DNA of 64,000 nucleotides from Halichondria panicea (Eukaryota; Porifera; Demospongiae; Suberitida; Halichondriidae), in contig NC_087379.1 in assembly GCF_963675165.1 (NCBI RefSeq), positions 1,988,201 through 2,052,200 of the forward strand, written 5' to 3'. Of the stretch, positions 31,557 to 62,772 are shown one piece after another. A program made the translations under genes and the position numbers. The notes beneath the pieces are model-generated. The model was not told the origin of the DNA. It saw nothing but the letters and a program-made list of their open reading frames with translations, and did not search any database. Each line of letters begins with the position of its first letter. The first letter of the stretch is position 1.

Positions 31557-44149
<12,593 letters not shown>

Positions 44150-45818: not shown

Positions 45819-47858
45819 TTACTTCGTGCAGACAACACAGTTGACTTCTTTATCGGTATTGTAAGGAGGGCAGGGTAGACCAGTATCACAGTTAGCTTCA
45901 ACATGGTAGAACAGAGCACCATTAGTATTTGCATGACCTCCAGGCACCGACTCTTGTCCTTTGTCAACACATTCGAACATTGAGCGTTTATGGGTGTGAT
46001 GATCAGACATGAGATATCCCTCGTACTCTTTGGTCCAGTATTGAGGGCATGAAGTCTTTGCAGGAATCATGAGAACAATTAATCGACTCACCACAAGGCA
46101 GACCGAACAGGGAACATTGTGGTCATGTGTGCCTCGGACTGGATGTTCATATTCAGTACCATAGATGTACATGTTTCCTTGAATACCACTTTGAAAAGGT
46201 AGAGTGTATTCTGGATCAAGAGGTAAGCATAGATAATTTGCTGCCCCACCACTGTGAGTGTAGTGGCTCCCTCCAACTATCCCGTTGTATATCCGCTCTG
46301 TTCCAGGCACGTTTGGACAAGTGCTGTTTCCCCACCTTGTGTACACAACACCTTCGTTCTTTGGTCTTGGAAGCTGACTTTTGGCATATAAAGTGGTACA
46401 ATTATTATATATATATATATATATATACAGCAAGTATATGTGACAATGTATATGCCTCGATCAGTGCGTATGCCCAGTGAGGTAGGTATATATATATAGT
46501 GTTTATCTGCATTGTAGACATGCAGCTATATATATAGCTGCTTAATAATAAAATGCAAGTATATAAACTTCTATATATAAACCGTATACATTGTAAGCGT
46601 GTAATTTTCGAGGGGTAAAATATTCGTTATTTTCGTGGGCAAGCTGACCTCCACAAACATTTTCCACATGAAAACGTAGGCGTGGCTTATCGGAATGCAT
46701 GTAATGTAGTGCAGGCAATGAAGTCAAATAAAATTTACTTATGAAAATCACCGTCTTCGAGTTGAGCGAATTTTTACCCCACAGAAATTACCCGCTATAC
46801 AGTATATATAGCAGGGTGTCATACAGGGGGAAAAGGGGGATATCCCCCCTATAGTTACAATTTCACCCCCCTTTCAAGTACTAGTTGTATGGCTGAGTGT
46901 CCATAGATGGGTATTAAAATAACAGTCGACCTTTTTTTAGCAACATTTTCTGGTTACTTTTCTCATTTCCCCCTCTACTTCAAAATCCTGTAGGCTTTTC
47001 TATAGTTGGATTGGATGTGCAAAATAAGGCTTCGTTCTTGAGTATAGGTATGGCTATAGTTTTGCGTACTTTGAAGGCCAATGCATGCAGTCTCTTTAGA
47101 CTTGTGCGTATATACCGTATAGCACGAAATGTTCATTTTCGCTGATTTTACATGTGGGTTAGCAATCCTACACGAACTGCTATAATGTGCAAAGATTAAA
47201 GGCGTGGCTTCCGGTAAGCAGTCATTTCCACGAACATTGCGCAACGAAATGCTTTTAGAGGCCATTCCATGGAATAAGTGCCTCGAAAATTTCGCGCTAT
47301 ACGGTATTATATTGTCCTATAATTATAACCGCTAAAACAAAACGGTAGTCAATAAAGGGCGTGACACCTAACTCTGTCCCTAACCTTATATATATAACCT
47401 ATTGACCTGCATGCACTGTTTCATGAGAGCATGCATGCAGCAGCCAGGAACTTTTGGCAATCTTCTTAGCCAACAATCATGCACGGTCAATCATTTTGTT
47501 ATTTATATAGGACTGCATCATACATGTGCAGCTTTCTATACCCGCGCTGCTTTTATTGTCAATACCGTATTATTAGAATATTTTGCTGGTGAAAAACCTT
47601 TGCGTAAAAACCTTTGCGTAAAAACCTTTGCGTATGAGCCAAATTAGTATGCAGAAAAGTTAACCTATATTGCGATGTAAAACTATTGGGTTTTGCGATT
47701 TTATTGTTGCTAATTAATCAACTCTCGCAAAGTTCGCATATTATGTTTGATGCTCGCAAAACATTCTATAGTGTTGTGCTAAAATTATACGAGTCTGAGT
47801 CAATTACCTGTAGTACTTGCACAGCAACTAGAACCACAACAAACACCCACCACTTCAT
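45819..47858 (-). CDS. short-chain collagen family member without a triple helix (secreted spongin-type domain)
   Basis: Two exons, 47808-47858 and 45819-46373, join in phase 0 to give 201 residues. Exon 1 is a signal peptide (MKWWVFVVVLVAVQVLQ). Exon 2 starts [16 protein letters not shown] and runs to a C-terminal ...CVVCTK with ten cysteines, the C-terminal domain found in the intact paralogue at 57811-58613. All Gly-X-Y repeats, about 90 residues in the paralogue, are missing. The join falls between two CCRGGACCA-like sequences of the collagen exon, as a repeat-mediated deletion would leave. The frame is open throughout. Intron 1 (1.4 kb) has been enlarged by three MITEs. Likely an extracellular-matrix protein; whether it is expressed is unknown. 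Confidence 0.75.
46582..46803. mobile_element. MITE family C copy 2
   Basis: Ends GTAATTTTCGAGGGGTAAAA and CCCCACAGAAATTACCCGCT resemble the element at 19068-19272. It lies inside intron 1 of the collagen-less gene. Confidence 0.65.
47113..47306. mobile_element. MITE family B copy 2
   Basis: Starts TACCGTATAGCACGAAATGT and ends AAATTTCGCGCTATACGGTA. The interior matches the reverse complement of 39341-39570, including the GGCGTGGCTTCC stretch. Confidence 0.8.
47563..47775. mobile_element. MITE family A copy 3
   Basis: Left end TACCGTATTATTAGAATATT; the interior is in reverse orientation relative to 12679-12893, and the right end is partly eroded (GCTCGCAAAACATTCTATAG). AAAACCTTTGCGT is tandemly repeated inside. 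Confidence 0.7.
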
Positions 47859-52259: not shown

Positions 52260-53537
52260 TTATTTCTCTTTCACAAACATTTGGAACTTGACGTGGCCAT
52301 TAACGATGTACTTGACTCCACAAGAAGGTTTTTCTATAGTGTCGCAGTTTATTTTAATCTCATCGTTATAGTGCCTCATCCTCACTTTCAAATCTCTGGT
52401 AATCTGATAGTTGTTATGGTCACCGGCCTGGTTGAACATAGTTGCTGTCATAGCGAAGGTTTTTGGCCAATCGAGCTTGTCGTTAGCTTGGGCCGAAACA
52501 GGGGTGAGCTCAATATCAAGTGTACCCTTAAAATTGTTGAAATACAAATTAACCTTCATGATGTATCCTGTTGGAAAAGTCTGAAACTGCTCACTGTTGG
52601 TCCATCTGCTCGTTTCATATGCATACTTGACAGTCATACTAGTGCAGCTAGTCCCTACATAGCGTGTAAGAGTGTCCACTTGGCTGGATAAAACTGACAG
52701 CTCTTTAGATTTGGATTGAATTTCTGTTACCAATTCTATTTGTTGCTCTTTGAATGACTGTTTCAATTCACTGCGTAATTTTTCATTTTCGTTTTGTAGT
52801 TTAGCAATTGCTTCATCTTGCCTTTTCTGATTGTTTATGAAATAGCTAGTCGATAACCTCAAGTGTTTCTGAGCAGCTTGCTCCATGTGTTTGTCCGCGT
52901 CCTTCCGTTGGACCACCTCCTCACAGCCCAGCTCCTTCAGCTCACACTCGACCATTATCAGAGGACACTCTCTCAGGTGCCCCTCCAGTTGACCTCTCTC
53001 TGGGGGAGCCACTCCACACTCGTTGGGGCACGCCACCGGATACTTTGAGCACACTGGGAGGTGGTCGTCTTGGATCTCTTGATATGTTCCCTCCAGCAGA
53101 CAGTAGTCACAGCTGTGTGGTCTCTTGGGACAATCGTTAGTTGTGTGCTTCGTTAGAAATCTTCTTTCAACACTTTCTCCACAGTTGTACTGGCAATCCA
53201 CAGAAACTAATGCGCATTTCTCTCCAAGGTGTTGTTCTAGCTCTCCCAAACCACTCACCCAGTCACAACCAACAGCTTTGTTATCGCAATAGACCTTGAG
53301 ATCGAGAAGTCTTCTTCGGTGCTTTTTGTCTAGAAACACGGTGAAACTATCGATCTTACAAAAGGGGCAAGGTTTGTTGTCGGTGAGTATCTTTTGGATG
53401 CAGGCTTGACAGAAGTGTTGTCCACAGCAGCTGGTGAGGCTGGGCTCTCGGGTCACATGCAGACACAGGGGGCACTCGTAATCCCCCACACTCTGAACGA
53501 ACTCACACTGGTAGCCACTCAATTGAGGGGAGGCCAT
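52260..53537 (-). CDS. TRAF-like protein 2 (RING, TRAF-type zinc fingers, coiled coil, MATH)
   Basis: A single uninterrupted exon of 425 residues, paralogous to the nested gene at 39833-41176. The RING is at about 22-60 (CPLC...CCGQHFCQAC...CPFC), followed by TRAF-type zinc fingers (GLGELEQHLGEKC, QYNCGESVERR, RRPHSCDYC, PNECGV), a coiled coil, and a MATH-like C-terminal domain (PTGYIMKVNLYFN...LDWPKTFAMTATMFNQ). The surrounding SPT5 exon copies are all broken, yet this gene keeps its full frame and all zinc ligands visible in copy 1, which suggests it is functional. It lacks the extra coiled-coil segment of copy 1. Confidence 0.9.
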   Translation of the reverse strand: MASPQLSGYQCEFVQSVGDYECPLCLHVTREPSLTSCCGQHFCQACIQKILTDNKPCPFCKIDSFTVFLDKKHRRRLLDLKVYCDNKAVGCDWVSGLGELEQHLGEKCALVSVDCQYNCGESVERRFLTKHTTNDCPKRPHSCDYCLLEGTYQEIQDDHLPVCSKYPVACPNECGVAPPERGQLEGHLRECPLIMVECELKELGCEEVVQRKDADKHMEQAAQKHLRLSTSYFINNQKRQDEAIAKLQNENEKLRSELKQSFKEQQIELVTEIQSKSKELSVLSSQVDTLTRYVGTSCTSMTVKYAYETSRWTNSEQFQTFPTGYIMKVNLYFNNFKGTLDIELTPVSAQANDKLDWPKTFAMTATMFNQAGDHNNYQITRDLKVRMRHYNDEIKINCDTIEKPSCGVKYIVNGHVKFQMFVKEK

Positions 53538-53769
53538 TTTGGTGTTTAGAATAGTGTCACATGAGCAATTGTATTATTATAATCAGTTGTTTACCGAATT
53601 AGGGCAATGGTATGCTTTGTTTGTGTACATACGCTATACGGTATTTCATGATGCTGTAAAATTCATATTTGTTACAGTACTATAGCTGTATGCTCGTATA
53701 GTTTGTCCCAACCTTGATGCAAAAAATGCATGCACACCACGAACATAGTTCTAATCTCATCATATTCAC

Positions 53770-54165: not shown

Positions 54166-54782
54166 TGCAGTGTCTCTTGCATACATGTACATGTACAGCC
54201 TGACTGCATGTACCCCCTTACATGTACTGGTACTCAGAGAATGTCCTTGGGACACATTATGTTTGTGTTTGTGGATCATTGATTTTGTGTGCCCCGACGT
54301 CATGTGATCATGTGTAGTCCAGTTGCCTTCTCTGCCCCACCCCACAGACACCACCACCCTTTGGTTGGTTAGATACTTTCCTACGAAAGCCTTTTACAAT
54401 AGAGTATGACATTGTTTCAACACACACAGTACACACTTGTGCCTCTACATCCGGTATTATATAGTGTGTTTAGGCTATAATTATATTTATTACATGTAAG
54501 TTTCCCTGTATTATTACCCTCTCTCACACCCTCACATCACACACATACCCCATGCACACATGTCCACCAGGTGAAGGGGATCACTGGTCCGAACAGAGGT
54601 TACGTAGGGACACTCATCAACATTGACGAGGGGGACGGGATCGTTAAACTGGATGCTGACTCAGCACTCAAAATTATCAGTCTCAACCAGCTGGCCAAGT
54701 ATGCCTCGTCACTGAACTTTGAATCTGGAACTTTAGTTATTGATTTGAATAAGACATTGATAACTTACAGTAGTATATTTTG
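54166..54782 (+). pseudogene. copied SPT5 intron 23 and exon 24
   Basis: The intron copy matches 42955-43260. The exon 24 copy (54571 onward) keeps its acceptor and frame until near the end, where GTACGTGCC has become GTATGCC. This removes the original stop and lets the frame run to 54782 with 20-odd unrelated codons. The isolated exon is not part of a complete gene. Confidence 0.85.
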
Positions 54783-54959
54783 ATCAGTTACTGTATGACT
54801 GTACACATCACACGACATGCTGTCATTATTATTATTTACGATTTATTGACAATGCTTCATAACAGACTTTGAACACAAAGGTAATGATGGAGGGTGTACA
54901 GGTTTGATACACATAACGTGTGATACAATAAGGTAGTATAATGAGATTATAGTGGCTAA

Positions 54960-61816: not shown

Positions 61817-62772
61817 TTACTTTGTGCAGACAACACAGTTGAGTTCTTTATAGTCATTGTAAGGAGGGCAGGGTAGTCCAGCTGTACCACAGTGAGCTTC
61901 AGCATGGTAGAACAGAGCACCATTATTACTCGCATTACTTCCGGGCACCGACTCCTGTCCTTTATCAACACACTCGAACATTGAGCGTTTATGGCTTTCA
62001 TGCTCAGACATAAGATATCCCTCGTACTCCTTGGTCCAGTATTGAGGGCATGAAGTCTTTGCTGGAATCATGAGAACAATTGATCGACTCGCCACAAGGC
62101 AGACCGAACATGGAATATTGTGGTCCTGTGTGCCTCGGACTGGTTGTTCATATTCAGCTCCATAGACGTATATGTACCCTTGGGTACCACTTCGAAAAGG
62201 TAGAGTGTATTTTCTGGATCAAGAGGTAAGCATAGATGATTTGCTGCCCCACCACTGTGAGTGTAGTGACTTCCCCCAACTATCCCGTTGTATATCTGCT
62301 CTGTTCCAGGCACGTTTGGACAAGTGCTGTTCCCCCACCTTGTGTACACAACACGCGCGCTCTTTGGTCCCGGTGTACCAGTATTTCCTTGAGGGCCGGC
62401 CTCCCCCTTCACTCCAGGCAATCCTCTAGGTCCTTGCGGCCCATTGGCTGGGCCTGGATCTCCTCTGAATCCAGGTGGTCCTGTTATTCCATCCCTCCCA
62501 TCTCTTCCTGAGCTCCCTGGTTGACCATCACTTCCCGCAGATCCAGGCTGACCATCACGACCATCTCTGCCTGGAATCCCTCGTTGTCCTTTAGGTCCCA
62601 TTAGCCCTGGTGGTCCTGGAAGCTCACCTTTGGCACATATTAGTATGGTGTAGTAGCAAGTATGTGCATGTTATAAGTGTTGTGGTCAAATTACGAATCT
62701 GACTCAATTACCTGATGCCATGTGTACAGCAACTATAATCACAACAAACACGCTCAACTTCATGTTCATCAT
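61817..62772 (-). pseudogene. short-chain collagen copy with a frameshift
   Basis: Exon 1 (62712-62772) encodes the signal peptide MMNMKLSVFVVIIVAVHMAS with a good donor. Exon 2 (61817-62627) carries the Gly-X-Y region and the spongin-type C-terminal domain, in correct phase with exon 1. Near 62208-62214 two extra T bases (GTGTATTTTCTGG against GTGTATTCTGG in the paralogue) shift the frame after LPLDPE, in the middle of the C-terminal domain. Everything downstream is otherwise intact to CVVCTK. It is either a very recent pseudogene or a sequencing error in a live gene. This copy best shows the ancestral gene structure. Confidence 0.8.

Follow-up and report, generated by a model that had tools for sequence, protein, structure and literature searches.

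The 64,000-nt stretch of DNA analysed here (the window, to whose positions all bare coordinates refer) carries at 45819-47858, on the minus strand, a two-exon locus, hereafter the target, in which a signal-like exon precedes a spongin-type C-terminal domain (Table 1). The assignment to the spongin short-chain collagens (SSCC) is a putative one, based on the cysteine count. Joined by the predicted splicing, the exons read as 201 residues and a stop codon with no internal stop, in agreement with the open protein of that length that an earlier note on this DNA had proposed, spliced at the acceptor GTCAG. All ten cysteines of the domain are present when it is aligned with 22 other members from the same genome, and exon 1 keeps a hydrophobic segment of 17 uncharged residues. 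An additional AG lies 4 nt before the in-frame acceptor, and its use would shift the frame and yield a product of 70 residues. Collagen-like frames of at least 90 residues are absent from the intron, as are Gly-X-Y runs of at least five triplets from the coding strand over the 1.5 kb that precede the domain; a hidden helix exon inside the intron, which we considered, was thus not found, and the deletion scar itself holds no Gly-X-Y. Sequence and paralogue comparison thus bear out the claim that the triple helix is wholly lost while the C-terminal domain is open and complete. Provided that the exons are spliced as we infer, the target has the make-up of an NC1-only gene, a domain with a signal and without a helix.

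Table 1. Features of the target locus and of its neighbouring paralogues (positions in the window).
Feature	Position	Strand	Remarks
Target exon 1	47858-47808	minus	Contains the start codon and encodes a signal-like hydrophobic segment, MKWWVFVVVLVAVQVLQ; donor CAG/GTAATTG, phase 0; aligned with five paralogues
7-nt deletion site	47810..47811	minus	GTGGCAT present in C3:2084729, C9 and 57811; phase 1 to 0, VASG removed
Target intron	47807-46374	minus	1,434 nt; predicted splicing
Repeat-like element 1	47109..47307	minus	Terminal inverted repeats of 23 nt (91%); among 40 candidates scored, one other copy
Dispersed repeat 2	46812..46992	minus	37 of the 44 returned matches (40 of 4,550 candidates scored)
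Dispersed repeat 3	46596..46806	minus	25-nt terminal inverted repeats (84%); four other matches among those scored
Tandem acceptor	46374..46379	minus	AG at 46379-46378 shifts the frame if used; AG at 46375-46374 in frame
Target exon 2	46373-45819	minus	Encodes LPRPKNE, then the ten-cysteine domain
Deletion scar CTTCCAAGACCAAAG	46359..46373	minus	82 extra Gly-X-Y codons here in paralogues
Spongin-type C-terminal domain	45822..46352	minus	Ten cysteines, 177 aa; stop at 45821-45819
Paralogue with helix	57811..58724	minus	Domain 80% identical to target; start ACA, donor GA; probably broken
Paralogue with helix (L014)	61817..62763	minus	Broken: frame of the C-terminal domain shifted by 2 inserted nt near 62212

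The five closest paralogues of the target (57811, 61817, C3:2052136, C3:2084729 and, as outgroup copy, C9:2390104) all have a Gly-X-Y helix of ~90 residues between the signal-like exon and the domain. In each of them, 246 nt or 82 codons separate CCAGGACCA, near the start of exon 2, from CCRGGACCA, just before the domain (positions compared by hand), and where they have two repeat stretches the target has a single one, now CCAAGACCA. What is missing in the target is therefore 246 nt, exactly 82 codons, in frame and bounded by CCAGGACCA-like repeats. A deletion between these two short direct repeats removed the triple helix; that it kept the frame was likely, because the repeats sit in the Gly-X-Y frame. 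A deletion at matching CCRGGACCA-like repeats had already been suggested, and all five paralogues agree with it. Since the outgroup copy has a helix, its absence from the target is derived; both intact copies of the array (C3:2052136 and C3:2084729) are also helix-bearing. In the family tree the target groups with L010, L011 and L012 (97/91), and these stand beside L013 (100/99); each of the four has a helix. The target thus descends from a helix-bearing copy.

The frame survived through changes at both splice sites. Exon 1 of the paralogues (n = 5) ends with AS-G and is followed by an intron of phase 1, and GTGAGC (in C9 GTCAGC) comes after the acceptor that precedes their helix. The target lacks GTGGCAT three bases before its donor, a loss that is not seen in the alignment of C3:2084729, C9 and 57811 and that takes the intron from phase 1 to phase 0. 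At the other end of the intron, the AG of the ancestral acceptor is altered (AAAGG to AAAAG), and GTCAG stands in place of GTGAG, whereby a splice five bases further on brings the exons back into frame; the two splice changes (7 nt and 5 nt) total 12 nt. The earlier note overlooked both of them. Its statement that the phase 0 signal exon still fits describes the target correctly, but phase 0 is not ancestral, since the paralogue introns are in phase 1. Two joined exons fit by chance one time in three, hence the fit alone is weak evidence. Changes at both splice sites leave the signal-like exon joinable in frame to a complete ten-cysteine domain, and we regard this structural account, a helix deletion and splice-site changes, as almost certain.

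The 7-nt loss also removed VASG, likely the residues of signal cleavage. By a von Heijne-type score (cut-off 3.5) the target has 2.8, and this at Gln/Leu, an implausible site; C3:2052136, C3:2084729 and C9 reach 3.8-5.9. By the same matrix, four helix-free members elsewhere in the genome score 2.42 (L031), 1.26 (L032), 8.11 (L062) and 8.72 (L050); as helix-free members thus score both low and high, the cleavage test is soft. The domain had been called secretable: the hydrophobic segment is indeed kept, but the loss of VASG and the low score, soft as the test is, weaken the claim.

The target intron is far longer than those of the five paralogues (58-86 nt), and its growth is partly explained by repeats, as three repeat-like elements cover ~590 of its 1,434 nt. 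Searching the genome with the intron gave 4,550 candidates, of which 40 were scored and 44 matches returned; among those scored, its only full-length match was the intron itself. We also considered a transposon carrying the whole gene and rejected it, as the repeats found by this search, which covered the intron, lie inside the intron only.

The target belongs to a tandem array in which two of the four other copies are broken (57811 and 61817). These two had been taken as intact comparison genes, and the helix is present in both; however, 57811 has ACA in place of the ATG with which the other five sequences begin, though an ATG further on might serve, and its donor GT is changed to GA, and 61817 is frameshifted. 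Intact frames are seen in C3:2052136, which lies across the end of the window, and in C3:2084729, beyond it. The states of the target are common now to one, now to another sister copy, which fits a star tree or gene conversion alike, and the sister-copy tree has one inner branch with 43% support. The same interval holds other duplicated DNA. Closely similar RING/TRAF-zinc-finger/MATH-like genes flank the target on the minus strand at 39833-41170 (by Pfam) and 52260-53573 (by eye), and matching exons on the plus strand at 54481-54783 and 43754-44149 mark a duplicated gene segment.

The target is not the only helix-free member of its family in this genome. In the genome (131 Mb, 39 contigs) the domain gave 117 matches from 121 candidates scored, some genes giving more than one; upstream DNA was read for part of these matches, and architectures and splicing were sorted by eye. 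The family tree includes 33 rows from this genome, 18 with Gly-X-Y and 15 without (the target, eight of a signal type, five of a membrane type and one with no signal found); L014, the 61817 copy, L026 and L033 were left out because their domain frames are broken. An array at C3:7.18 Mb contains genes in which a signal-like segment is joined directly to the domain (within a single exon in L031, across a short intron in L032 and L038) and genes with a non-collagen segment of ~60 residues between the two (L030, L035 and L037). Damage among the eight loci read there consists of stops in the domain of L026 and L033, both of the direct form, and the changed start codon of L037. Further signal-plus-domain genes are predicted, with splicing read by eye, at C8:6197296 (L017/L050) and C14:4517977 (L062). 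In L019, L036, L039, L040 and L043, again by eye, an N-terminal membrane segment (type II-like) and a coiled-coil-like or short stalk precede the same domain.

In codon models, run with our own script, six members of the array at C3:7.18 Mb, L037 among them, had an omega of 0.55 (p 4.6e-5 against 1), which is high for a conserved gene. On the C8:6197296 branch, among five sequences, omega was 0.008 (p 6e-7 against 1), a soft value because synonymous change is probably near saturation. From these estimates, the helix-free signal-plus-domain architecture looks to be under selection elsewhere in the genome. A second, independent loss of the helix is seen in another tandem array, at L063 (C9:425238; C9:425201-426700), where the domain frame is open and a signal exon was not found in the 938 nt upstream; the neighbouring L064 has both signal exon and helix. 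An open domain frame by itself is thus weak evidence of function. On the family tree the helix/no-helix label requires four changes, three of them forced by well-supported branches, with the caveat that long branches meet where L063/L064 join L039/L040.

The target may be a working gene or a decaying copy. A branch model (own script, one topology, six sequences) gave its branch, a short one, an omega of 0.49 and the remaining branches 0.31; neither a single omega for all (p 0.39) nor an omega of 1 (p 0.19) fits significantly worse. The damaged copies had 0.60 and 0.93, the intact ones 0.21 (C3:2052136), 0.38 (C3:2084729) and 0.21 (C9). The intact C3:2084729 is also indistinct from 1 (p 0.08), hence such short branches have little power, and a neutral dN/dS, which had been proposed as grounds for rejecting the gene, is inapplicable to a branch as short as that of the target. 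In neutral simulations with 10, 14, 20 and 25 substitutions, of which 20 is about the length of the target branch, the frame stayed open in 66, 56, 44 and 37% of the runs, and stayed open with all cysteines in 42, 30, 18 and 12%. Seven residues are private to the target among the five close paralogues. An alignment of 23 members, to which the target contributes one row, has 43 columns that are either invariant or conserved to at least 90%, and by eye none of the seven lies in them; by chance this is expected with a frequency of ~0.14, calculated by hand as (134/177)^7. Simulation and private residues lean towards constraint but fall short of demonstrating it, and much of the target branch may predate the deletion.

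That the target is a decaying copy has, in our estimate, slightly less than an even chance. As a pseudogene it would belong, with two other altered copies, to a tandem array in decay. The helix deletion, the exon 1 deletion, the lost ancestral acceptor and the repeat-filled intron would then be successive damage, and the domain frame would be open only through youth or through conversion from intact neighbours. The two broken copies nearby, an omega not different from 1, the open domain that persists at C9:425238, the variably shared sister states with their poorly supported inner branch, the loss of the likely cleavage residues, the tandem acceptor with its risk of frameshift, the partial damage to the helix-free C3 array and the survival of frame and cysteines in part of the neutral runs are all consistent with this. 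It fits less well that the frame was preserved across three separate frame-relevant changes, and that 555 nt are free of stops with all ten cysteines in place and the conserved columns free of private residues. An expressed and translated target kept by selection likewise falls a little short of even odds on the sequence evidence; we thus consider a young helix-deleted short-chain collagen copy that is a gene and one that is a pseudogene about equally likely.

Two other explanations are much less probable. The hydrophobic segment, kept while VASG was lost, might stay uncleaved and tether the domain to the membrane (N-in, C-out), like the type II-like forms of the family with their coiled-coil-like or short stalks. 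We consider this improbable: the segment is short and does not exceed that of a paralogue in hydrophobicity, its best 19-residue mean hydropathy being 1.74 where the three intact paralogues have 1.65-2.32 and the membrane forms L019 and L043 have 2.99, and the cleavage test is soft. Similar tandem copies can also be misassembled, and an error in which helix or intron were collapsed or misjoined might account for the locus. However, the target domain has private sites, exon 1 differs from all five paralogues, the intron matched only itself in full length among the candidates scored, and the assembly is contiguous (39 contigs, the 11 listed spanning 5.7-18.1 Mb), which makes this explanation very improbable. 

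As our best explanation, we give an even chance to a young member of the array that lost its helix by deletion and encodes a putative free C-terminal domain. Its product, if expressed, would enter the ER as a free domain folding by itself, as other helix-free members of the genome must do, and would act extracellularly or at the cell surface and build no fibres, either as a trimeric head binding matrix or surface partners, or by pairing with short-chain collagen chains and limiting their assembly. The roles proposed in the earlier note, to cap, compete in or regulate short-chain collagen assembly, may also apply.

Relatives of the domain also occur in bacteria. A scan of GTDB contigs gave 32 pattern matches, and five contigs, titled Eisenbacteria (L065), Deltaproteobacteria (L066), Myxococcales (L067 and L068) and Bacteroidetes (L069), have 36-46% identity over nearly the whole domain. 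Gly-X-Y precedes the domain in L066 and L068, not in L065, L067 and L069. For the L065 contig, contamination with animal DNA is made less likely by genes with aldehyde dehydrogenase, SSB and pyruvate kinase domains. In the phylum of the L067 genome, 9 of 377 sampled genomes match, four with the full domain and those of L067 and L068 among the four (at most nine candidates per genome scored). The five bacterial rows are set apart in the tree (98/96); their branches are long, so that the joins between these rows are less secure. Of more distant copies, L081 and L082 have Gly-X-Y and L080 has none; the L080 domain matches the profile with an hhalign probability of 97.5. Among nine further bacterial loci put to the Gly-X-Y script, L075, L078 and L079 gave no row. 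L077 is another bacterial contig with a relative of the spongin-type domain.

Searches of Pfam, NCBIfam and PDB with the domain returned no family or structure, the lone PDB row (E 0.12) being noise, and none of 23 spongin-type members matched Pfam C4 (PF01413). In the genome, C4 was found only at C9:6766511-6766849; this is within L003 (C9:6766143-6769316, minus), a collagen IV-like NC1 with C4 over the cut-off and an HSQ motif. A profile comparison of this NC1 with the spongin domain gave a weak match (hhalign probability 48, E 1.9e-4, 47 columns), with the register Cys-X-Val-Cys ... CP-x(2)-W ... GY. Collagen IV NC1 domains form trimers without a helix, and this, together with the weak match, favours a spongin-type domain that is a self-folding, probably trimeric putative head with an exchangeable stalk. 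The match agrees with the view, expressed in passages of PMC5395295, that spongin domains are relatives of collagen IV; ten cysteines are implied there, seven in common with collagen IV and three of their own. The same passages report the loss of collagen IV in demosponges, so that, given L003, either the host, judging by the gene family probably a sponge, is not a typical demosponge or collagen IV was kept in it.

There is, we estimate, about an even chance that the spongin-type domain is an autonomous head module and not merely a collagen trimeriser. In this proposal, one genome would use it in three settings, attached to a collagen helix, at the end of a membrane-anchored stalk and behind a signal peptide alone; the helix would have been lost repeatedly, with at least two helix-free lineages that look constrained and the target as the youngest free form seen. 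The scattered bacterial relatives, too, come both with Gly-X-Y and without it. The family context is more interesting than the target locus. The domain often stands apart from collagen, and in such a genome its own function becomes testable in the absence of collagen. The target stands near the start of an easy secondary route to NC1-only genes, taken by one 246-nt deletion and changes at two splice sites.

In the portions of the open-access literature consulted (including PMC5395295, PMC12549020 and PMC6626399), we found neither helix-free spongin-type genes nor bacterial relatives described. The target resembles the SSCC (Aouacheria 2006, as cited in PMC5395295 and PMC12549020) in its ~177-residue ten-cysteine C-terminal domain, its signal-like exon and its direct paralogues with short Gly-X-Y; in contrast to them, it lacks the defining short collagenous segment. 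The bacterial copies recall the mosaic adhesive trimer (MAT) fibres of Bdellovibrio, which, as described in part of PMC10769870, carry diverse C-terminal tips on trimeric stalks. The N-terminal region of L066 is weakly MAT-like (MAT N domain, E 5.6e-6, 26 bits, below the cut-off of 60); however, these fibres are bacterial, L065 gave an E of 0.078, the MAT N-domain model did not match L067, L068 or L069, and the likeness of the tips is one of description. A precedent is found in ctenophores, where NC1-only genes, some with a signal peptide, likewise have a domain of the collagen IV/spongin kind without a helix. According to passages of PMC5395295, those genes, which encode collagen IV NC1, are absent from other phyla and are a remnant of the collagen IV ancestor, whereas the target is spongin-type and, by its position in the tree, secondarily helix-free. 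If the reading above is true, helix-free NC1-type genes, which here stand in several lineages, some of them apparently constrained, are a recurrent derived state and more than a relic of the earliest collagen IV.
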